DNA of 64,000 bases from Diprion similis (lineage: Eukaryota; Arthropoda; Insecta; Hymenoptera; Diprionidae), in assembly GCF_021155765.1 (NCBI RefSeq), contig NC_060116.1, positions 9,486,001-9,550,000 on the forward strand, written 5' to 3'. The notes beneath the pieces were generated by a model. The model did not search any database, had not been told where the DNA came from, and saw nothing but the letters and a program-made list of their open reading frames with translations. The position numbers were made by a program, and so were the translations under genes. Positions 1 to 43,939 of this stretch are shown piece by piece (position 1 is the first letter of the stretch; the number at the start of each line of letters is the position of its first letter).

Positions 1-273
1 TTGGCTAATTGGAACCCCAGGAACTCAAAAAACACAATAAAAAGAGCGTAGAACCAACAGCAGAGAAATGACGATGAAAATCTGCAGTTTTTTGGCTGTA
101 ACTTTTGATCCGTTGCTCGCAGCGTATTGGGACTGCGCTCAATCGATTTCTCTCGCGAAATTACGTCGGAATAGTGCCTCCATAAATTCATTGCAGCACT
201 TTCCAAAGTGGTCGAAATTTTCGCCAAAAATCCAAAGGGGTTAGCCTTACTTTTTTTGCAATTTTTGGACCCG

Positions 274-1404
274 AAAATTTCTGGTCTCCGAATTGATTTG
301 TATGACCGTTTCTTGGCTAATTGGAACCCCAGGAACTCAAAAAACACAATAAAAAAAGCGTAGAACCAACAGCAGAGAAATGACGATGAAAATCTGCAGT
401 TTTTTGGCTGTAACTTTTGATCCGTTGCTCGCAGCGTATTGGGACTGCGCTCAATCGATTTCTCTCGCAAAATTACGTCGGAATAGTGCCTCCATAAATT
501 CATTGCAGCACTTTCCAAAGTGGTCGAAATTTTCGCCAAAAATCCAAAGGGGTTAGCCTTACTTTTTTTGCAATTTTTGGACCCGAAAATTTCTGGTATC
601 CGAATTGATTTGTATCATCGTTTCTTGGCTAATTGGAACCCCAGGAACTCAAAAAACACAATAAAAAAAGCGTAGAACCAACAGCAGAGAAATGACGATG
701 AAAATCTGCAGTTTTTTGGCTGTAACTTTTGATCCGTTGCTCGCAGCGTATTGGGACTGCGCTCAATCGATTCCTCTCGCAAAATTACGTCGGAATAGTG
801 CCTCTATAAATTAATTGCAGCACTTTCCAAAGTCGTCGAAATTTTCGCCAAAAATCCAAAGGGGTTAGCCTTACTTTTTTTGCAATTTTTGGAGCCGAAA
901 ATTTCTGGTCTCCGAATCGATTTGTATGATCGTTTCTAGGCTAATTGGAGCCCCAGGAACTCAAAAAACACAATAAAAAAAGCGTAGAACCAACAGCAGA
1001 GAAATGACGATGAAAATCTGCAGTTTTTTGGCTGTAACTTTTGATCCGTTGCTCGCAGCGTATTGGGACTGCGCTCAATCGATTTCTTTCGCTAAATTAC
1101 GTCGGAATAGTGCCTCCATAAATTCATTGCAGCACTTTCCAAAGTGGTCGAAATTTTCGCCAAAAATCCAAAGGGGTTAGCCTTACTTTTTTTGCAATTT
1201 TTGGACCCGAAAATTTCTGGTCTCCGAATTGATTTGTATGACCGTTTCTTGGCTAATTGGAACCCCAGGAACTCAAAAAACACAATAAAAAAAGCGTAGA
1301 ACCAACAGCAGAGAAATGACGATGAAAATCTGCAGTTTTTTGGCTGTAACTTTTGATCCGTTGCTCGCAGCGTATTGGGACTGCGCTCAATCGATTTCTC
1401 TCGC
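274..1404. repeat. Duplicated 1,131-bp block inside the satellite, copy A
   Basis: Compared base by base with 8074-9204, this stretch (about 3.6 units) is identical, including rare variants such as TCATCGTTTC near 615, TTCCTCTCGC near 771, CCTCTATAAATTAATTG near 801 and TTTCTTTCGCT near 1084. Identity breaks at 273 on the left and at 1405 on the right. Confidence 0.9.
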
Positions 1405-4400
1405 GAAATTACGTCGGAATAGTGCCTCCATAAATTAATTGCAGCACTTTCCAAAGTCAACGAAATTTTCGCCAGAAATCCAAAGGGGTTAGCCTTACTT
1501 TTTTTGCAATTTTTGGACCCGAAAATTTCTGGTCTCCGAATTGATTTGTATGACCGTTTCTAGGCTAATTGGAGCCCAAGGACCTCAAAAAACGCAATAA
1601 AAAAAGCGTAGAACCAACAGCAGAGAAATAACGATGAAAATCTGCAGTTTTTTGGCTGTAACTTTTGATCCGTTGCACGCAGCGTATTGGGACTGCGCTC
1701 AATCGATTTCTCTCGCAAAATTACGTCGGAATAGTGCCTCCATAAATTCATTGCAGCACTTTCCGAAGTGGTCGAAATTTTCGCCAAAAATCCAAAGGGG
1801 TTAGCCTTACTTTTTTTGCAATTTTTGGACCCGAAAATTTCTGGTCTCCGAATTGATTTGTATGACCGTTTCTTGGCTAATTGGAACCCCTGGAACTCAA
1901 AGAACACAATAAAAAAAGCGTAGAACCAACAGCAGAGAAATGACGATGAAAATCTGCAGTTTTTTGGCTGTAACTTTTGATCCGTTGCTCGCAGCGTATT
2001 GGGACTGCGCTCAATCGATTTCTCTCGCAAAATTACGTCGGAATAGTGCCTCCATAAATTAATTGCAGCACTTTCCAAAGTCAACGAAATTTTCGCCAAA
2101 AATCCAAAGGGGTTAGCCTTACTTTTTTTGCAATTTTTGGACCCGAAAATTTCTGGTCTCCGAATTGATTTGTATGACCGTTTCTTGGCTAATTGGAACC
2201 CCAGGAACTCGAAAAACGCAATAAAAAAAGCGTAGAACCAGCAGCAGAGAAATGACGATGAAAATCTGCAGTTTTTTGGCTGTAACTTTTGATCCGTTGC
2301 TCGCAGCGTATTGGGACTGCGCTCAATCGATTTCTCTTGCAAAATTACGTCGGAATAGTGCCTCCATAAATTAATTGCAGCACTTTCCAAAGTGGTCGAA
2401 ATTTTCGCCAAAAATCCAAAGGGGTTAGCCTTACTTTTTTTGCAATTTTTGGACCCGAAAATTTCTGGTCTCCGAATTGATTTGTATCACCGTTTCTTGG
2501 CTAATTGAAACCCCGGGAACTCAAAAAACACAATAAAAAAAGCGTACAACCAACAGCAGAGAAATGACGATGAAAATCTGCAGTTTTTTGGCTGTAACTT
2601 TTGATCCGTCGCTCGCAGCGTATTGGGACTGCGCTCAATCGATTTCTCTTGCGAAATTACGTCGGAATAGTGCCTCCATAAATTCATTGCAGCACTTTTC
2701 AAAGTCGTCGAAATTTTCGCCAAAAATCCAAAGGGGTTAGCCTTACTTTTTTTGCAATTTTTGGACCCAAAAATTTCTGGTCTCCGAATTGGGTTGTATG
2801 ACCGTTTCTTGGCTAATTGGAACCCCAGGAACTCAAAAAACACAATAAAAAAAGCGTAGAACCAACAGCAGAGAAATGACGATGAAAATCTGCAGTTTTT
2901 TGGCTGTAACTTTTGATCCGTTGCTCGCAGCGTATTGGGACTGCGCTCAATCGATTTCTCTCGCAAAATTACGTCGGAATAGTGCCTCCATAAATTGATT
3001 GCAGCACTTTTCAAAGTCGTCGAAATTTTCGCCAAAAATCCAAAGGGGTTAGCCTTACTTTTTTTGCAATTTTTGGACCCGAAAATTTCTGGTCTCCGAA
3101 TTGATTTGTATGACCGTTTCTAGGCTAATTCGAGCCCCAGGAACTCAAAAAACGCAATAAAAAAATCGTAGAACCAACAGCAGAGAAATGACGATGAAAA
3201 TCTGCAGTTTTTTGGCTGTAACTTTTGATCCGTTGCTCGCAGCGTATTGGGACTGCGCTCAATCGGTTTCTCTCGCAAAATTACGTCGGAATAGTGCCTC
3301 CATAAATGAATTGCAGCACTTTCCAAAGTCGTCGGAATTTTCGCCAAAAATCCAAAGGGGTTAGCCTTACTTTTTTTGCAATTTTTGGACCCGAAAATTA
3401 CTGGTCCCCGAATTGATTTGTATGACCGTTTCTGAGCTAATTCGAGCCCCAGGAACTCAAAAAACACGATAAAAAAAGCGTACAACCAACAGCAGAGAAA
3501 TGACGATGAAAATCTGCAGTTTTTTGGCTGTAACTTTTGATCCGTTGCTCGCAGCGTATTGGGACTGCGCTCAATCGATTTCTCTCGCAAAATTACGTCG
3601 GAATAGTGCCTCCATAAATTCATTGCAGCACTTTCCAAAGTGGTCGAAATTTTCGCCAAAAATCCAAAGGGGTTAGCCTTACTTTTTTTGCAATTTTTGG
3701 ACCCGAAAATTTCTGGTCTCCGAATTGATTTGTATGACCGTTTCTTGGCTAATTGGAACCCCAGGAACTCAAAAAACACAATAAAAAAAGCGTAGAACCA
3801 ACAGCAGAGAAATGACGATGAAAATCTGCAGTTTTTTGGCTGTAACTTTTGATCCGTTGCTCGCAGCGTATTGGGACTGCGCTCAATCGATTTCTCTCGC
3901 AAAATTACGTCGGAATAGTGCCTCCATAAATTAATTGCAGCACTTTTCAGAGTCGTCGAAATTTTCGCCAAAAATCCAAAGGGGTTAGCCTTACTTTTTT
4001 TGCAATTTTTGGACCCAAAAATTTCTGGTCTCCGAATTGATTTGTATGACCGTTTCTTGGCTAATTGGAACCCCAGGAACTCAAAAAACACGATAAAAAA
4101 AGCGTAGAACCAACAGCAGAGAAATGACGATGAAAATCTGCAGTTTTTTGGCTGTAACTTTTGATCCGTTGCTCGCAGCGTATTGGGACTGCGCACAATC
4201 GATTTCTCTCGCAAAATTACGTCGGAATAGTGCCTCCATAAATTCATTGCAGCACTTTCCAAAGTGGTCGAAATTTTCGCCAAAAATCCAAAGGGGTTAG
4301 CCTTACTTTTTTTGCAATTTTTGGACCCGAAAATTTCTGGTCTCCGAATTGATTTGTACGACCGTTTCTTGGCTAATTGGAACCCCAGGAACTCAAAAAA

Positions 4401-7400
4401 CACAATAAAAAGAGCGTAGAACCAACAGCAGAGAAATGACGATGAAAATCTGCAGTTTTTTGGCTGTAACTTTTAATCCGTTGCTCGCAGCGTATTGGGA
4501 CTGCGCTCAATCGATTTCTCTCGCAAAATTACGTCGGAATAGTGCCTCCATAAATTAATTGCAGCACTTTTCAAAGTCGTCGAAATTTTCGCCGAAAATC
4601 CAAAGGGGTTAGCCTTACTTTTTTTGCAATTTTTGGACCCAAAAATTTCTGGTCTCCGAATTGATTTGTATGACCGTTTCTTGGCTAATTGGAACCCCAG
4701 GAACTCGAAAAACACAATAAAAAAAGCGTAGAACCAACAGCAGAGAAATGACGATGGAAATCTGCAGTTTTTTGGCTGTAACTTTTAATCCGTTGCTCGC
4801 AGCGTATTGGGACTGCGCTCAATCGATTTCTCTCGCAAAATTACGTCGGAATAGTGCCTCCATAAATTAATTGCAGCACTTTCCAAAGTGGTCGAAATTT
4901 TCGCCAAAAATCCAAAGGGGTTAGCCTTACTTTTTTTGCAATTTTTAGACCCGAAAATTTCTGGTCTCCGAATTGATTTGTACGACCGTTTCTTGGCTAA
5001 TTGGAACCCCAGGAACTCAAAAAACACAATAAAAAGAGCGTAGAACCAACAGCAGAGAAATGACGATGAAAATCTGCAGTTTTTTGGCTGTAACTTTTGA
5101 TCCGTTGCTCGCAGCGTATTGGGACTGCGCTCAATCGATTTCTCTCGCAAAATTACGTCGGAATAGTGCCTCCATAAATTAATTGCAGCACTTTCCAAAG
5201 TGGTCGAAATTTTCGCCAAAAATCCAAAGGGGTTAGCCTTACTTTTTTTGCAATTTTTAGACCCGAAAATTTCTGGTCTCCGAATTGATTTGTACGACCG
5301 TTTCTTGGCTAATTGGAACCCCAGGAACTCAAAAAACACAATAAAAAGAGCGTAGAACCAACAGCAGAGAAATGACGATGAAAATCTGCAGTTTTTTGGC
5401 TGTAACTTTTGATCCGTTGCTCGCAGCGTATTGGGACTGCGCTCAATCGATTTCTCTCGCGAAATTACGTCGGAATAGTGCCTCCACAAATTCATTGCAG
5501 CACTTTCCAAAGTGGTCGAAATTTTCGCCAAAAATCCAAAGGGGTTAGCCTTACTTTTTTTGCAATTTTTGGACCCGAAAATTTCTGGTCTCCGAATTGA
5601 TTTGTACGACCGTTTCTTGGCTAATTGGAACCCCAGGAACTCAAAAAACACAATAAAAAGAGCGTAGAACCAACAGCAGAGAAATGACGATGAAAATCTG
5701 CAGTTTTTTGGCTGTAACTTTTGATCCGTTGCTCGCAGCGTATTGGGACTGCGCTCAATCGATTTCTCTCGCAAAATTACGTCGGAATAGTGCCTCCATA
5801 AATTCATTGCAGCACTTTCCAAAGTGGTCGAAATTTTCGCCAAAAATCCAAAGGGGTTAGCCTTACTTTTTTTGCAATTTTTGGACCCGAAAATTTCTGG
5901 TCTCCGAATTGATTTGTATGACCGTTTTTTGGCTAATTGGAACCCCAGGAACTCAAAAAACACAATAAAAAAAGCGTAGAACCAACAGCAGAGAAATGAC
6001 GATGAAAATCTGCAGTTTTTTGGCTGTAACTTCTGATCCGTTGCTCGCAGCGTATTGGGACTGCGCTCAATCGATTTCTCTCGCAAAATTACGTCGGAAT
6101 AGTGCCTCCATAAATTCATTGCAGCTTTTTCCAAAGTGGTCGAAATTTTCGCCAAAAATCCAAAGGGGTTAGCCTTACTTTTTTTGCAATTTTTGGACCC
6201 GAAAATTTCTGGTCTCCGAATGGATTTGTATGACCGTTTCTTGGCTAATTGGAACCCCAGGAACTCAAAAAACACAATAAAAAAAGCGTAGAACCAACAG
6301 CAGAGAAATGACGATGAAAATCTGCAGTTTTTTGGCTGTAACTTTTGATCCGTTGCTCGCAGCGTATTGGGACTGCGCTCAATCGATTTCTCTCGCGAAA
6401 TTACGTCGGAATAGTGCCTCCATAAATTCATTGCAGCACTTTCCAAAGTGGTCGAAATTTTCGCCAAAAATCCAAAGGGGTTAGCCTTACTTTTTTTGCA
6501 ATTTTTAGACCCGAAAATTTCTGGTCTCCGAATTGATTTGTACGACCGTTTCTTGGCTAATTGGAACCCCAGGAACTCAAAAAACACAATAAAAAGAGCG
6601 TAGAACCAACAGCAAAGAAATGACGATGAAAATCTGCAGTTTTTTGGCTGTAACTTTTGATCCGTTGCTCGCAGCGTATTGGGACTGCGCTCTATCGATT
6701 TCTCTCGCGAAATTACGTCGGAATAGTGCCTCCATAAATTCATTGCAGCACTTTCCAAAGTGGTCGAAATTTTCGCCAAAAATCCAAAGGGGTTAGCCTT
6801 ACTTTTTTTGCAATTTTTGGACTCAAAAATTTCTGGTCTCCGAATTGATTTGTACGACCGTTTCTTGGCTAATTGGAACCCCAGGAACTCAAAAAACACA
6901 ATAAAAAGAGCGTAGAACCAACAGCAGAGAAATGACGATGAAAATCTGCAGTTTTTTGGCTGTAACTTTTGATCCGTTGCTCGCAGCGTATTGGGACTGC
7001 GCTCAATCGATTTCTCTCGCGAAATTACGTCGGAATAGTGCCTCCATAAATTCATTGCAGCACTTTCCAAAGTGGTCGAAATTTTCGCCAAAAATCCAAA
7101 GGGGTTAGCCTTACTTTTTTTGCAATTTTTGGACTCAAAAATTTCTGGTCTCCGAATTGATTTGTACGACCGTTTCTTGGCTAATTGGAACCCCAGGAAC
7201 TCAAAAAACACAATAAAAAGAGCGTAGAACCAACAGCAGAGAAATGACGATGAAAATCTGCAGTTTTTTGGCTGTAACTTTTGATCCGTTGCTCGCAGCG
7301 TATTGGGACTGCGCTCAATCGATTTCTTTCGCTAAATTACGTCGGAATAGTGCCTCCATAAATTAATTGCAGCACTTTCCAAAGTCGTCGAAATTTTCGC

Positions 7401-8073
7401 CATAAATCCAAAGGGGTTAGCCTTACTTTTTTTGCAATTTTTGGACCCGAAAATTTCTGGTCTCCGAATTGATTTGTACGACCGTTTCTTGGCTAATTGG
7501 AACCCCAGGAACTCAAAAAACACAATAAAAAGAGCGTAGAACCAACAGCAGAGAAATGACGATGAAAATCTGCAGTTTTTTGGCTGTAACTTTTGATCCG
7601 TTGCTCGCAGCGTATTGGGACTGCGCTCAATCGATTTCTCTCGCGAAATTACGTCGGAATAGTGCCTCCATAAATTCATTGCAGCACTTTCCAAAGTGGT
7701 CGAAATTTTCGCCAAAAATCCAAAGGGGTTAGCCTTACTTTTTTTGCAATTTTTGGACCCGAAAATTTCTGGTCTCCGAATTGATTTGTATGACCGTTTC
7801 TTGGCTAATTGGAACCCCAGGAACTCAAAAAACACAATAAAAAAAGCGTAGAACCAACAGCAGAGAAATGACGATGAAAATCTGCAGTTTTTTGGCTGTA
7901 ACTTTTGATCCGTTGCTCGCAGCGTATTGGGACTGCGCTCAATCGATTTCTCTCGCAAAATTACGTCGGAATAGTGCCTCCATAAATTAATTGCAGCACT
8001 TTTCAAAGTCGTCGAAATTTTCGCCAAAAATCCAAAGGGGTTAGCCTTACTTTTTTTGCAATTTTTGGACCCA

Positions 8074-9204
8074 AAAATTTCTGGTCTCCGAATTGATTTG
8101 TATGACCGTTTCTTGGCTAATTGGAACCCCAGGAACTCAAAAAACACAATAAAAAAAGCGTAGAACCAACAGCAGAGAAATGACGATGAAAATCTGCAGT
8201 TTTTTGGCTGTAACTTTTGATCCGTTGCTCGCAGCGTATTGGGACTGCGCTCAATCGATTTCTCTCGCAAAATTACGTCGGAATAGTGCCTCCATAAATT
8301 CATTGCAGCACTTTCCAAAGTGGTCGAAATTTTCGCCAAAAATCCAAAGGGGTTAGCCTTACTTTTTTTGCAATTTTTGGACCCGAAAATTTCTGGTATC
8401 CGAATTGATTTGTATCATCGTTTCTTGGCTAATTGGAACCCCAGGAACTCAAAAAACACAATAAAAAAAGCGTAGAACCAACAGCAGAGAAATGACGATG
8501 AAAATCTGCAGTTTTTTGGCTGTAACTTTTGATCCGTTGCTCGCAGCGTATTGGGACTGCGCTCAATCGATTCCTCTCGCAAAATTACGTCGGAATAGTG
8601 CCTCTATAAATTAATTGCAGCACTTTCCAAAGTCGTCGAAATTTTCGCCAAAAATCCAAAGGGGTTAGCCTTACTTTTTTTGCAATTTTTGGAGCCGAAA
8701 ATTTCTGGTCTCCGAATCGATTTGTATGATCGTTTCTAGGCTAATTGGAGCCCCAGGAACTCAAAAAACACAATAAAAAAAGCGTAGAACCAACAGCAGA
8801 GAAATGACGATGAAAATCTGCAGTTTTTTGGCTGTAACTTTTGATCCGTTGCTCGCAGCGTATTGGGACTGCGCTCAATCGATTTCTTTCGCTAAATTAC
8901 GTCGGAATAGTGCCTCCATAAATTCATTGCAGCACTTTCCAAAGTGGTCGAAATTTTCGCCAAAAATCCAAAGGGGTTAGCCTTACTTTTTTTGCAATTT
9001 TTGGACCCGAAAATTTCTGGTCTCCGAATTGATTTGTATGACCGTTTCTTGGCTAATTGGAACCCCAGGAACTCAAAAAACACAATAAAAAAAGCGTAGA
9101 ACCAACAGCAGAGAAATGACGATGAAAATCTGCAGTTTTTTGGCTGTAACTTTTGATCCGTTGCTCGCAGCGTATTGGGACTGCGCTCAATCGATTTCTC
9201 TCGC
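8074..9204. repeat. Duplicated 1,131-bp block inside the satellite, copy B
   Basis: Second copy of the block at 274-1404. The offset is 7,800 bp, exactly 25 units, so the exchange that created it kept register with the repeat. Confidence 0.9.
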
Positions 9205-9914
9205 AAAATTACGTCGGAATAGTGCCTCCATAAATTAATTGCAGCACTTTTCAAAGTCGTCGAAATTTTCGCCAAAAATCCAAAGGGGTTAGCCTTACTT
9301 TTTTTGCAATTTTTGGACCCGAAAATTTCTGGTCCCCGAATTGATTTGTATGACCGTTTCTAGGCTAATTGGAGCCCCAGGAACTCAAAAAACACAATAA
9401 AAAAAGCGTAGAACCAACAGCAGAGAAATGACGATAAAAATCTGCAGTTTTTTGGCTGTAACTTTTGATCTGTTGCTCGCAGCGTATTGGGACTGCGCTC
9501 AATCGATTTCTCTCGCGAAATTACGTCGGAATAGTGCCTTCAAGAATTAATTGCAGCCTTTTCCACAGTCTTTGAAATTTTCGCCAAAAATCCAAAGTTA
9601 GCCTTACTTTTTTTGCAATTTTTGGAGCCGAAAATTTCTGGTCTCCGAATTGATTTGTATGACCGTTTCTTGGCTAATTGAAACCCCAGGAACTCAAAAA
9701 ACACAATAAAAAAAGCGTAGAACCAACAGCAGAGAAATGACGATGAAAATCTGCAGTTTTTTGGCTGTGACTTTTGATCCGTTGCTCGCAGCGTATTGGG
9801 ACTGCGCTCAATCGATTTCTCTCGCAAAATTACGTCGGAATAGTGCTTCCATAAATTAATTGCAGCACTTTACAAAGTCATCGAAATTTTCACCAAAAAT
9901 CCAAAGTGGTTAGC

Positions 9915-31546: not shown

Positions 31547-33984
31547 CCCGCGATCTTATCTCGAACGGAGATACATATTATCGTGTGTCAGAAAAGCAGT
31601 CGATCACGCGCGATTAAGTGAGTCTGTATTTTGAAATCTAAAGCTTGTGGTCCGGGTTAATTTTTAATTGTGTATCGAAATAAGGGGAATTCGGTACGAG
31701 ATTTTCTTATACGACCCTATAATTCAACCCATGATCTTTCCGATTTGAAACATTTCATGAACAGCCTCGATACTTTTGGACATAAGTATGAATGTACCGA
31801 TTTGAAATAAAACAATTTTTTACGTTTATGTGGAAATGTGATACACTAGGCATGATGTGCGACGTATGTTGTAATTTGAAAGAAGGTATATTATACGGAA
31901 AATATACATCGATAGGATCGGTAATATTTTTGTCATACAGTGTACTTAATGTCTACTGCGATATAGATATACAAAATTAAAAGATGGGCAAAAGATCTCG
32001 CAAAACCGTTTAAATGTCGGAAGGTAAATGATACTGATAAATATGATTACGCGTTTAATTGATTGACTCAGATTGTAGATCGTTGAAATCATGACTGGTA
32101 TAATACGTAACATGTGTAGAAAGAAGCATAACAATGAGCTCGTCTCACTATTATGATGTACCTACAATGATTTTTCAGTGATTATACAAATGTTATTTTA
32201 TATTTATATTTATTTATATTTTACATCTTACTCTAGTTTCTTGCGGGAAGCTTTAGTTCTTTCCAAATTCTCGAATAAGGTCACCAATCATTCAACGCGG
32301 AAAAGAGAGGTGAAATCATTTTCGTTTTGCATAATTATTTTAATAATTATTTCTTACATATCAATAAACGATTATAAATTTGACAGTTAAAATGTTAAAA
32401 CATTGGAAGATTCAATATGACCACGTACAGATTTATTCAGAGTTATTCCAAAGTTTCCAAAATACGTGTAACGGTACATAGGAGCTAATGTTCAGTCGAA
32501 ATGACGGTGAAAAGTTAATTAAATTATGTTATTACGTCATTACTTCAATTAACTTATAAATTTTAATACACACACAACATATCATGCCTACACTTGCATG
32601 GCCACGGAATTCTTCCTTCACCTTATATCGTAAAAATTCAAACCCTGTGAGAATTCTTGTTTCGTAGTATAAAAAATCAGTGCATCAAAAAAAGTGGTCA
32701 CCAGGAGAATGAGTTTTACATCAAATTAACATATGGCACACTAATCTCATATAATTAAGTATGATTTCATAAATTTACTTCAGACTCTTCGCGAATCGCA
32801 GATCAAAGCTTTCAGCCTAGAATTGTTATTTACCGTAATACAGTGATCATGTTAAACAATAAGCAAAACTGTAAAATGGTAACTGAAAAGAATCCGATGA
32901 CTGAATTTTCGACGATAAGGTAAAATATCTGGCGAAAATTCGAATCACAATTAATTAAAAACTTTTTATTTCTTTAACCAAATTTATTTTATTCATCATA
33001 ATATTTTGAACGTCAACCGACTATAATATCATTTGCAATGATCTGATTCGTCAATTTTGCCTGCGTTACGTAGCAGGAAAGGAAAACATGACCGCAATTT
33101 CCTTTCTTGCTTGAACAATTAGAACGCATGATCGCGAGTAATGAGTAAAATTATGCACTGGTAATTGTAATAGGATTTAGCTACGTATTATTAATAGTGG
33201 CTAACACAAGGCCATAAAATGTCACATCTCATTTATCTGGCTTGCGTCACATGAGATCATTATTTCCACACATTCATCGTGGAAAGTATTTTCAATTGAA
33301 AAAAAAAAAAATTGTGGAAGGAATTTCTTAATTATGCAATATCTAACAGCAATCAACGATGATTTGAGCAAATAATCAATGTATCAACTTAATTCATCAC
33401 ATAAATGTTAATTATTTATAGATTTCATATACCATTTGATGGTACATAAAATTTTTGTTCATGTGATGTTATACATATTAAGTCGGTTCTTACGTCTGGT
33501 ACAAAGCAATAAATAAATAACTAACGACTTATCGTAAAAATAATTCAATCATGTTCCAAGCTCAGAAATCTGAGTTAAACATGGGAACTAAAAAACAGGA
33601 ATGTGGTGAATTTTCAAGTAATAATTTCTTTGACACAGTAGCGAAAGGAAAAAAAAAAAAATAAGAACAAACTATGTACGCATTTTCACTACTGCATCCT
33701 GATAAATTTCTCGATTCATTCAATTCAAAAGTGCAACATCATTCTCATCATGAACAATATTCAACTTATTTGAAATTATGAATACATTCGGAATGAAATC
33801 TATACGCTGGCATGTACAAATGATTCCCCCCCCCCCCCCCCCCCCCCCCCCGCCTCAAATATTGATAAAATTTAGAAATAACATAACGATGATGATCTAG
33901 ACTTCAAAATTCCAAATATCGAAAGCCCTGTTACAATCAATTGCATATAATAACAACTTGCGCGGCTTGTCGGCAGTAAATAAT
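31547..33984. other. Spacer between the protease promoter and the membrane-protein gene
   Basis: AT-rich DNA without a recognisable exon. The right part is likely the 3' UTR of the membrane-protein gene and includes a 26-base C run. Confidence 0.5.
33826..33851 (-). repeat. 26-base C run, read as poly-G in the transcript
   Basis: Uninterrupted cytosines on the plus strand, starting 134 bases beyond the stop codon of the minus-strand gene. It probably lies in the 3' UTR as a G run. Confidence 0.9.
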
Positions 33985-36900
33985 TCATTTATGGTTGCTT
34001 GAGCAGCATCCCGAGTTTATCACATTCAAGTTGACATTGGCCGAAATGAATGTGGCAGAGGGCGGATTCGGATTAGCGTTACTATGTTCAGGACGCGGTG
34101 GTGTGGCCGATGGCCCATTATTTTCTCTACGTTCTTGGCCGGACGATGAAGGGGTAGGACACCGAGTAACAAGGTCTAGGGTCATATTCATTGTGTTCTC
34201 AGCCTGTTCAGCGGAAATACTTGCAAAGGGTCTGTCGGCAACAATGGTCGAAGTAGTTTGTCTGGAAAAACAAAAATTCTTTTATCAATTCGTAGAACGA
34301 TTGTACAAGAGTATACGAGAAACATCCTAAGCTTTCTAATCAAAGGTTTGATATTTTTTCATTACTTGAGAAGCTCATTAGTCAAAGGTGAATTTTTGGC
34401 TGTATAAAAATCAAGATAAGGGATTTCGATAGCTGACTAGAACAAAGTTTTAATGGTAACAATCCTCACCCAGGCGTCCAAACACTCTGGATGGTTTCTT
34501 CTTCTTGTATTTCTAAATTCGTTGTTAGGGTTGCCGGGCTTTCTTGAGAATCATAATTTGGATCCGCATTAACCCAATCTGGAGGATGACAGGCTTGCGC
34601 CTTTACTGGCTTATCCACCATCATAGCACCGGGATAAGCAGTAGATTTCTTTGCTTGCAGCGGTATACGTTGTTCATTATACATATCCCCATAATTATCT
34701 GAAACAACGGAGTAAACTTACACGATGATTTTTTTAAATCTAATCCATTTTTTTTTACCTCTACGTTTGACCAAATACAGACAGTGTAAATGTCCGTTCA
34801 CTACGTCACATTTATGCAAACTATGGTTTTATTTATTAGAAGAGCAATTGTACTTAAACGAAAATGTAGGAAAAATGGCATGTCTGTGTTAATTCGGATG
34901 CCTCATTGCATAAAAAAATCACATAACCATTTACCTGGTATAACTGCAGCGTTCGTACTATTAAAGTACGAAAAATCGTCGACATAATGTCGTTAAATAA
35001 TTTCTTATATAAATGGCAGCTCGATCCTTGCAGCATTTGGAAAAAAAGCAAGAGTCAGTTGACGTACACTTGCGGAAAAGTTGAATATCACTGGCTATAA
35101 TGATAATACAAATTTTTTTTCTGATCAAATAATGAAATGTATTTTACTCACTGTTGTTTGCTGATGCAGGAGGTGCAGTTGGTTCTAGAACCGAAACTGC
35201 ACATTCGAGATCACCCGAGTAACATTTTTCGCAACATTTCACTTTAACTGAAACAGAAAAGCAAATATTTATAATTCAATAACGACTTCGAAAAACTGGA
35301 TATGAAAACAGTAATTGATAAAGAAACTTACTCCAAAGGTGTGTAAGGTAAATGATGATTATAACAGATATGAGACAGCCGATTAGTCCCCATATCAGAG
35401 CAGTCATGTTAAACGGATACTGATTTCCGTCATTTTTTTTGCATGTAGTTGCCTCTTGGCCGTCCGTGTTGACTTCCGCGGAAAAACTGTAGCGAAAAAA
35501 TAGAACTAGAGTAACCGTTGCGCTAAATAAACTCTTGAAGGTTGAGTACTAAATAAGCGCTTTACGAATAATTGCATCAAGCGTCTATTCTGACATGATT
35601 TTGCGCAAGAAAATTTTTTAAAGCTTGACAGGGCGGCCAAATTATGAAAAGTTTCGAAAACAGATTAATTTGGGGCTTGACGATGCTTTCGATTGAATAT
35701 TTGTCAAAAAATATCTCACGCGGCAAAGTTTTTTTTTTTTTTTTTTTCTTATTAAGCATTAGAAACGTAAAATGTTATTGAAAGCCTATATAACTATGTG
35801 AACATTAAAGTGAGAAAATATGTAGATTTTTCACGTATCGCTTACCCAGGAAGACAAGGACCGCATTGCTTGGCATCGCGGGCTTGTGTTGAACCATTCC
35901 GCCTGTCATATGAGGCACATTTGGTATAGTTGACGCACTTTTTTGACGTCTCATAGCAGTACTGATGTTGTGAACAATCGGCATCGACTCTACAGGATTC
36001 GGCCGCAGTTGCTATTACCTGTAAAAGTACAAAATTGTAGAGGTATATCCTGGATTTGGAACAGGTAGCAAAAGCAACAATTTACGGATATTGTTTCTAA
36101 TCGTAAATCTAAAAATACAGATTAGACATAAAACTAACCGCAATGGTTAGGTACGCAGTCGTGGATGTATGATTTCAAAATTCAATTTTTCTCCTGCACA
36201 TTGCTGTTGTTCTCTGCAGTTTGCAGCGGTTCGTCGCAATCATGGTCAGGAATATTTATCAGTAATATTCCACGTTTCTTCGTCCGATGAGAAAGAAAAT
36301 TCTACGCAGTGACGAATCGATTTGCAAATATAACATATATACCTACATATAAATTTATAAATACAAGGGTGCGGATTTTTTCGAGGATATTTTTGGAACG
36401 GCAGGAGACTCGGTCGAGCAGATATGTTCCAAAAATAATTTGTTTGGATCGGTGTGATTTTTCTTGAAGAAAAAAGAAAAAAGAAAAAAAAAAATAACGT
36501 TAAATAGAAATTAAATAAACCGGCGACTGAGTTAACACAATAATAACTAACTTCGATAACGCATATATACTTAATTAGAAAGCGAATTGCAAGTAAGGAG
36601 GACATCTAGCGTGTGGTGTATAATATAGTACGATTAACACACCGATAAAGATTCAGTAAGTGATCAACACCGCACAGCGTATAACGAATGAGCAAACGAA
36701 AGTGATTAAAGTGTTACGTTGGTTGGATATGTATACAACATATGTATAAGTAAGGTCAGGGATTGCTGGGTTTTATATACCGAGTGCTCAATGTCACCAG
36801 TAGCATGCGGATAACAGTGCTCACAAGGAGGTGCCATACGCGTGAGGAGTAAACGTGACGCAATGGTTATGACGCATCGGAGAAAGTTTTATTTGAAATA

Positions 36901-41000: not shown

Positions 41001-41830
41001 CTGAAACAATGCGTAAATCCACACGTATGAAACAACCTGCAGAGTTGCATTGAAATTATAGTAATCACGTAAGCGTATCGGAATAGTTTTAATTTTCTGC
41101 ACACATTTTATTCATCGCAAATATGCACCGAGGGATGGAAGAAAAATACATGGCGTTGGACTGGGGAAACGAAAGTGAAAAATAGTTCTCAATCTTATAA
41201 TTTGATAATCTTCCCTTCTGACTTCCAGCGTACGGAATTCAGTTTAACTTATAAAAATGAATTCTCGTTCAGTCGAACCTGAAGACAATAACATTTTATT
41301 TTCTTTTTGTACAAATGTGAATTATTCAGAGAAATTACCTACATACATCGAAAAATGCATATTATTTGAAAAACTGTAAGCTTTTGTTGTATAAACTTTA
41401 TGTTTCACCTGTAGGTCTGAAAAATAATTGAACAAAGTTGAATCTTCTACGTATATAGAAATGAAGAATGATTTTTTTTCTCTAAAAGACCCATACAATT
41501 GCCACACTGTGATATTTTACGAAATCATCACCTCTTATCACGTCCGGTGAAGCAGGAGATTGGCAAAAAATAAATAAAAATTTTACACATAATAATTATA
41601 TAGCCGAACTATTGGCAGAGCTTATTATTACAAGGCTAATATTCGTAATACCAACGGAACAGATAATATATATATACCCATTGCAATAAATAAAAATATG
41701 ATGATGAAGTTGGTGACGTCACACTGTACCGATCTATTTTTATAAAAAATGGAGGAAAAATTGTTACTCGTTGCACCTTTAGTATATTACGCGCGCGCAC
41801 ATGCACACACACACACACATACACACACAT

Positions 41831-42260
41831 AATTCTAAAGACGGTTTGAGCATGTGTAGAAGTGCTGAGGAGTAACTGTGAATTATTTGAGAATTTTCAT
41901 AAGCTTTCAAGAAACAAAAAGTAAGGACATACACGACTCACCTGTGTACGGAGCAGGAAAAATATCCTGTGTGTGTGACTGAGGTTTCATTTTAACACTA
42001 CAATTTTTTCCTCATCGTCGCTATATGTATATATCTGCCGCACGGTTTTCGTGTTTATGTATACATGTAGCTACGATGGGGAAAAAATTGTAGTGTTAAA
42101 ATGAAACCTCAGTCACACACACAGGATATTTTTCCTGCTCCGTACACAGGTGAGTCGTGTATGTCCTTACTTTTTGTTTCTTAAAAGCTTTTGAAAATTC
42201 TCAAATAATTCACGATTACTCCTCAGCACTTCTACAAATGCTCCAATTGTCTTCAGAATT
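41831..42260. repeat. Long inverted duplication, 204-bp arms, 22-nt loop
   Basis: Left arm 41831-42034 and right arm 42057-42260 pair position by position (paired coordinates always sum to 84091) with no indel. I count about 13 mismatches, nearly all in the outer 80 and inner 20 bases. From 41911 to about 42011 the pairing is perfect. I see no target-site duplication or transposon ends. It lies upstream of the membrane-protein gene. Confidence 0.93.
41942..41990 (-). other. Candidate alternative first coding exon of the membrane-protein gene
   Basis: On the minus strand an ATG at 41990 opens MKPQSHTQDIFPAPYT and ends at a strong donor (ACAG then GTGAGT) after 41942. Splicing to the acceptor at 41001 gives a seamless frame: ...APYT-D-FGKIPSATGVT, then MASVV. 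An in-frame TGA lies four codons upstream of the stretch before the ATG, so this would be the true start of that form. It adds 28 residues in front of the signal peptide. The exon lies in the left arm of the inverted duplication and has an identical mirror copy on the plus strand. Confidence 0.45.
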
Positions 42261-42639
42261 GAATATTCCATGATTTTGTAATAAGCCCGGTGCTAACCTC
42301 TCTGGCTTTCGAAGATAATTCAAGGGGACATTTTTTGAACGACCCACCTGTGTGATGGAGGGTTGAATCATCTTTCTCCTTTTCTAATATCTTTAATCAC
42401 GTAGTATTGCATGTATATAAGAAAACAAAAATGTATATTCTTGGACCGATTCACTGGGATTTTTAAAAAATTCATAGACGTGGCTAAAAAAGGTGCGAGC
42501 ATGAGAAAAAAATTCACTGGTTAGACTCTATAGACAAATGAATATTGAAAGCGAACGATAATTGTGTAGAAATAGTTTATATTGTTCTATATTTTTATTC
42601 CGTAATTTTTTGGCCGCAGTTTAAAATTTTCCAGTTTTA

Positions 42640-42668
42640 TGATGATGATGATGATAATAATAATAATG

Positions 42669-42714
<46 letters not shown>

Positions 42715-42734
42715 CAACAACAATAATAATAATC
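42640..42734. repeat. (GAT)n/(AAT)n/(AAC)n microsatellite
   Basis: A run of trinucleotides: GAT copies, then AAT with interruptions, then AAC and AAT. Confidence 0.95.
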
Positions 42735-43939
42735 ATAAACTCTGGGCAGGTTGAAATTAAGTTGAGAAAGCACCTGCTCTAGAATCCTTTGAAACTGAAT
42801 TTTACAATACTTTTACGGCCTTCTGGAATTGGCATTTCAATGAAATCGAATGTTTCAAAGTCAGATTCGTGATGACTGGTTTCAAGAATTCTACGATTAG
42901 TCAATACTACCCAATTAAGTAACTCCGCTGTAATCTGAATTACTCTTAAAAATATTGAGAAAAATTAATTGAAATGGGACGTCCCGTGTGTAACTAATTT
43001 AAATAGGAATAACGAGGGTGTATGAGAAAAACATGTGTAATAATAATTTATACTTGATAAACAAGACGGTAACTTCCGCGAAGCGATATTTTTCAAGGCG
43101 GAAAACGTTCCTACTGCACATAGATTATTGCGGTAAAGTTTACATGTAAGTTTACTAAAAACAGATACTCACCGTTAACTTAACACAAGTAACGTAATTA
43201 AGGCTGTAGCTGATGTATTTAGTTAATCGAACGCTTTCAGAACTGCGCCTGAAACTCTCGTCTTTAGAAAAACGTTCGTACGGATTGACGATTGCATCAG
43301 CAATTGTTAAGATGAAATGGTGGTCGGTTGACGGTGCAAAAAAACGGTTTGATTTCAGGGAGGTAAGCGCAGGTAGATTTAAACGTTAAGTGTATAAAAT
43401 CGGTGATGTGTGTGAAAATGATTTAGAAAAAATTCACCCACACACAAACATATTCAAAAAACAAATCATCGCTGCTTTGAATTGCGAAGCAATGCAGCTA
43501 TTGCCTGCACTACGGTTACGGTTTAAAAATCGGATATAGTTAATTGTTAAAAGCGAAAAACAAGTCGCACTAAATCTAGAACATCAGGAATGTACGTATG
43601 CATTTGCGGATGTACCGGAGTGGAAATGTTTCCTGCTCGATTATGCGATACCACAGATTCCTCGCCACGCGCGACTCCGCGGTAAACACGAACGTCACAA
43701 CACGTTTGCAGCACGTGTGGTGGATGTGTAAGAAGATTAAATGATATAATCAAAGGGCTCGACACGTCGCTGCAAGATAGGTACCTCGGTTTTAGGGATT
43801 CGTGTCAAGACCTGTCGATGCATGTGTCGACGAGCCCGGTGCATCGGACGAAATCGGTAAAACGTTCGAATGACGTTTAGAAAATCTTACAATTAGGAGT
43901 AAAGGAAAAAGTTCATGCAACGTATAGTCGGTAGCTTAC

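Follow-up and report, generated by a model that had tools for sequence, protein, structure and literature searches.

We propose that the long hairpin at 41831-42260 of a 64,000-nt window of the Diprion similis genome (the whole stretch analysed, C12:9486001-9550000) is very probably a neutral feature, formed when part of a decayed MITE was duplicated in inverted orientation along with its flank, and that its arms were later homogenised. Without evident function, it seems an ordinary product of DNA copying and not a gene-silencing device. This removes the tempting claim of a “self-silencing exon”, and illustrates cleanly how the end of a decayed transposon, together with a fold-back copying error, can mimic a gene start mirrored on itself; the element family acts as an internal record by which changes can be assigned to each arm.

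The inverted repeat comprises two 204-nt arms, 94% complementary, with 13 mismatches and 0 gaps between them. The geometry reported in the first-pass annotation (two gapless 204-bp arms, a 22-nt loop and a matched core of about 100 bp) was recovered in full, the core measuring 103 bp. The hairpin and the sequences adjoining it are made up as follows.

41790-41830, plus strand: CG/CA-type simple repeat immediately outside the left arm, where the switch back may have landed.
41831-42034, minus strand: left arm, which repeats 42057-42260 in inverted orientation (45 bp of flank and 159 bp from the element 5′ part).
41909-42011, minus strand: left-arm side of the 103-bp perfect core.
42035-42056, strandless: spacer (loop) of 22 nt.
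42057-42260, plus strand: right arm, regarded as the original copy, contiguous with the complete element.
42057-42101, plus strand: 45 bp of non-element flank within the duplication, no copy of which was found outside the hairpin.
42080-42182, plus strand: right-arm side of the 103-bp perfect core, a presumed homogenised tract.
42102-42366, plus strand: decayed MITE-like element of 265 bp including its TTAA-like borders (TGAA...TTGA), with the 3′ end CCTGTGTGATGGAGGGTTGA.

Four of the mismatches lie next to the loop, at arm positions 3, 11, 16 and 23, and the other nine in the outer part, from position 127 to 198, leaving the perfect core between them. The 430 nt fold as RNA to -330.1 kcal/mol, whereas 100 shuffles average -92.36 (sd 6.16), giving a z of -38.59. 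In a gapless search (minimum 40 nt) of window positions 9900-64000 this was by far the strongest of the inverted repeats listed, the remaining 18 inverted pairs having arms of 40-47 nt and being mainly simple repeats. A search of the whole window for known RNA families (miRNA and others) gave 0 Rfam matches at the gathering score.

A dispersed, decayed element occupies 42102-42366; its 5′ part supplies the right arm, and the rest runs 106 bp past the hairpin. We searched the insect's own genome (269 Mb, 60 contigs) with 42057-43200 and obtained at least 14 matches, the window itself and the left arm included. These revealed at least 10 other element loci (on C2, C3, C4, C8, C9, C10 and C11), aligned over 179-266 bp at 75-83% identity, and the same query also gave one 69-bp match and one 31-bp match, the latter lying outside the hairpin. 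Aligned copies have common ends of the type TTAACCCTYCRTCACACAGG ... CCTGTGTGAYGGAGGGTTAA, inverted over about 20 bp, and are bordered by TTAA or variants of it, decayed in the window copy to TGAA (5′) and TTGA (3′). The 3′ terminal 20-mer, allowing up to 2 mismatches, was found at 12 places (the window copy is among them, and two are both ends of a single copy), against 0 for a reversed control. With up to 5 mismatches allowed per end, paired ends 228-277 bp apart were present in six copies, that of the window and those at L011, L014, L016, L017 and L020 (5 of the 10 loci), and a single end in L012, L013, L018 and L019; L015 combines one end with two more end-like matches, some 1.05 kb off past an inserted 830-bp palindrome. 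The identical search of shuffled loci yielded 5 end-like matches in 727500 bases.

These features suggest that the element is probably a short non-autonomous DNA transposon, a piggyBac-type MITE. Such MITEs have, by definition, TTAA borders, and the 265-bp window element resembles them in being short and dispersed, with inverted ends (CCCTYCRTCACACAGG) and TTAA-like borders; it differs in its strong decay, and in having no autonomous partner with the same ends among 24 loci with piggyBac transposase matches. PiggyBac transposases do occur in this genome (at least 24 matches to PF13843), but none of the 24 loci (L054-L077), searched within about 1.5 kb on each side, carries the end pair of the element, one of them (L056) giving one single end-like match; thus the piggyBac-type label rests on the borders and the end motif. 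A MITE would be expected to have its ends in common with an autonomous element of its own genome, although this is no strict requirement.

This dispersed family bears directly upon what the first-pass annotation had taken for a candidate first exon of a neighbouring minus-strand gene, mirrored by the second arm and perhaps able to tune or silence that gene. The ATG and the donor-like ACAG|GTGAGT on which that idea was founded exist as described (minus strand, ATG 41990-41988 and donor GT 41941-41940; plus-strand mirror, ATG 42101-42103 and GT 42150-42151), but they are no evidence of an exon: the plus-strand ATG straddles the junction of flank and element, the donor-like motif is transposon sequence, reading ACAGGTGGGTCGT and similar in other copies, and the 49 nt from ATG to donor would encode 16 codons. 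There is therefore no reason to call this stretch an exon; it is a dispersed transposon end plus its flank. Silencing or tuning of the gene itself fares no better, as nothing was returned by genome searches with the arms beyond element copies, simple repeats and the hairpin, and the non-element part of the arms (query 42035-42101) matched only itself and the left arm, although absence of a match does not prove rarity. We reject a mirrored exon, which we consider scarcely credible.

The left arm is best understood as a local inverted duplication and not as a second insertion, because it has copied the 45 bp of flank and lacks the 3′ end of the element, stopping inside it without the last 106 bp and the 3′ terminal repeat. 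What we find, two colinear, closely spaced arms copied across a sequence boundary, is what defines such a duplication. A foldback transposon, or a head-to-head insertion of two copies, would likewise place element sequence in each arm; however, the arms of a foldback transposon should lie wholly within a multi-copy element, and these share 45 bp of non-element sequence for which no other copy was found, while the left arm ends within the element and has no outer terminal repeat. Either form of this explanation is very improbable, and we reject both on account of the shared flank.

Assemblies can contain palindromes produced by fold-back read artefacts, and such a read might be held responsible for this one also. 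Against this, the arms differ from each other at 13 sites, and comparison with the element family assigns changes to the left and right arms alike: taking the family as outgroup, the 9 outer mismatches comprise 5 left-arm changes, 3 right-arm changes and 1 site changed in both. (The 4 loop-side mismatches fall beyond the element, where there is no family sequence by which to assign them to an arm.) The private changes on both arms therefore make the hairpin neither an assembly fold-back, the chance of which we put at practically nil and which we rule out, nor a very recent structure. The first-pass annotation had also suggested a very recent inverted duplication kept identical by gene conversion; the duplication stands, as does a core of the kind that conversion would leave, but “very recent” does not agree with the 13 differences found over the 101 arm positions that flank the core.

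The distribution of those differences suggests that the core was later homogenised, by template switching or by gene conversion. When 13 mismatches were placed at random 200000 times, a mismatch-free run of at least 103 was left in 216 cases (P about 0.001). Where the core overlaps the element the arms never mismatch, and both differ from the family at 14 of the 74 called sites; the outer part has 9 arm mismatches, with 2 such shared departures among its 78 sites (Fisher P 2.7e-5, using the 6 copies which keep the 5′ end). With all 10 copies the shared departures in the core numbered 13/74 (Fisher P 4.2e-5), and under a coarser alignment they came to 9 of 58 called sites in the core and 2 of 78 in the outer part. 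There is, then, a tract without private changes inside diverged arms, with the caveat that it belongs to the 5′ portion of the element, a variable stretch in which copies are 38-80% identical to the window copy as against 78-91% in the outer part. Since the core lies in this most variable part, and its departures are more frequent than those in the element remainder outside the hairpin (9 of 105 sites), some of the shared departures may be older than the duplication or due to difficulty of alignment; the missing private changes are the sturdier sign of homogenisation. The perfect core may, alternatively, have been kept by selection.

Template switching between the arms of inverted repeats is a documented cause of homogenisation, as extracts of two studies describe (PMC8604942; PMC3820800), the first of which also cites homogenisation of long inverted repeats. 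The quasi-palindromes treated in those extracts resemble the present hairpin in being close inverted repeats with a perfect tract within diverged ends, but the yeast arms described in the extract of PMC8604942 are of 7-16 bp, whereas those in the window are of 204 bp with a tract of 103 bp.

Taking the partial inverted duplication as our preferred reading, we suggest the following course of events. The short non-autonomous DNA transposon, its superfamily presumed, would have inserted at 42102-42366 and then decayed, as the family alignment shows. A replication fork moving leftward may then have paused just beyond the 5′ end of the element, where the nascent strand could have folded back, leaving a 22-nt loop, or have switched strand, and copied 204 nt before copying returned at the CA repeat, so producing the left arm. 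The geometry is plain from the arms, and we infer fold-back or template switching by a leftward nascent strand from it because the complete original lies to the right, the loop has only 22 nt and the left junction is at the CA repeat (genome matches for 41790-41830 are themselves simple repeat). The arms would next have collected independent mutations, which the family comparison shows, and a later template switch or gene conversion between them would have erased the differences over about 103 bp, as their distribution suggests.

A functional alternative is that this is an hpRNA locus, at which Dicer-2 siRNAs made from a putatively transcribed hairpin would silence transcripts carrying this transposon family. 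The long inverted repeat, foldable as RNA, that such a locus needs is present as a 430-nt near-perfect hairpin; its RNA, if transcribed, would fold into a long duplex. The genome has three matches, at two loci, to the Dicer dimerisation domain, and 4 of the 14 other loci that we tested (L011, L012, L015 and L018) have exact runs of 21-23 nt in common with an arm. There is also a precedent in Drosophila simulans, where an extract of PMC10317233 describes hp-ODox2 as an hpRNA with transposon-derived arms (BS2/Jockey). In length of inverted repeat, and in the occurrence of transposon-derived arms, our hairpin resembles the Drosophila hpRNA endo-siRNA loci of that extract (PMC10317233), but it differs from them in that exact runs shared between its perfect core and any of the 14 other loci reach at most 13 nt. 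The shared runs of 21 nt or more all fall within 42215-42260, in the mismatched outer part of the arm. Nor do the 9 arm-to-arm transitions, counted by hand, show a clear bias towards keeping G-U pairs on one strand (6 plus-strand and 3 minus-strand cases), and in the biased set of 52 loci that we scanned other long palindromes, of lower identity, are by no means uncommon. We consider an hpRNA locus very unlikely. A still narrower version, in which the minus-strand gene carries the hairpin in a 5′ intron and the two are transcribed together, the hairpin being a nascent hpRNA with siRNAs against MITE-bearing transcripts and with a core preserved by selection for a long duplex and not by neutral conversion, seems to us more doubtful yet.

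To the left of the hairpin, at 33.9-36.1 kb, are minus-strand exon-like stretches, one cysteine-rich and one with a hydrophobic segment, and the hairpin would lie either upstream of this gene or in its 5′ intron. A donor-like GATAAAG|GTAAGC near 43.94 kb on the minus strand could end a first exon, making the hairpin intronic; equally, a TATA-like box near 36.78 kb could start the gene downstream of the hairpin. In the latter region (36605-36780, minus strand) the box (GTATATAAAA) stands upstream of an ATG at 36605 which opens a reading frame, and a weak donor in that frame would join it in phase to the cysteine-rich stretch (acceptor near 36018), so that 36605-36780 is a possible alternative start of the gene. 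The cysteine-rich stretch (35845-36081, minus strand) may resemble the insect TNF-receptor-like protein Grindelwald; nothing in it scored above the Pfam cut-off, a PDB sequence search gave 0 matches at E up to 1, and the name was dropped. Elsewhere in the window, Pfam matches mark an NGP1-type GTPase at 25.6-27.8 kb, trypsin stretches at 29.8-30.6 kb and a CFAP161-like stretch on the plus strand at 46.3-46.8 kb.

Our palindrome scan covered 177268 bases in 52 loci, after removal of contained ones, and three of these loci overlap the present hairpin; they were picked by their matches to the hairpin, its flanks, the piggyBac transposase or the terminal repeat, and are not a random sample. The other long palindromes in them, all less alike than the hairpin, are given here; there are shorter ones besides.

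L015, 1690-2519: palindrome of 830 bp, 82% between halves, which interrupts an element copy and has end-like matches on its far side.
L031, 189-1380: palindrome of 1192 bp, 81% between halves, with ends TAYTAGGGTGATTTTTTTTGAACGAC.
L032: palindrome of about 330 bp, 77%.
L057, L060 and L061: palindromic pairs of 234-256 bp, 76-78%.
L012: palindrome of 136 bp, 71%.
L053: separated inverted arms of 213 bp, 75%.

The L015 palindrome has a shorter relative in L011 (at 283-520), and is therefore itself a repeat family. That of L031, with no relative among the scanned loci, looks like another foldback or long-TIR element.

Two simple features of the window were also seen. There is a run of 26 C at 33826-33851, and positions 1-9914 hold a 312-bp unit repeated in tandem about 31.8 times (97% matches), lying about 1 kb from coding-like stretches; this satellite, with at least 335 matches scored, is found elsewhere on at least C1, C3, C4, C6, C7, C8 and C14, at 94-95% among the matches listed.
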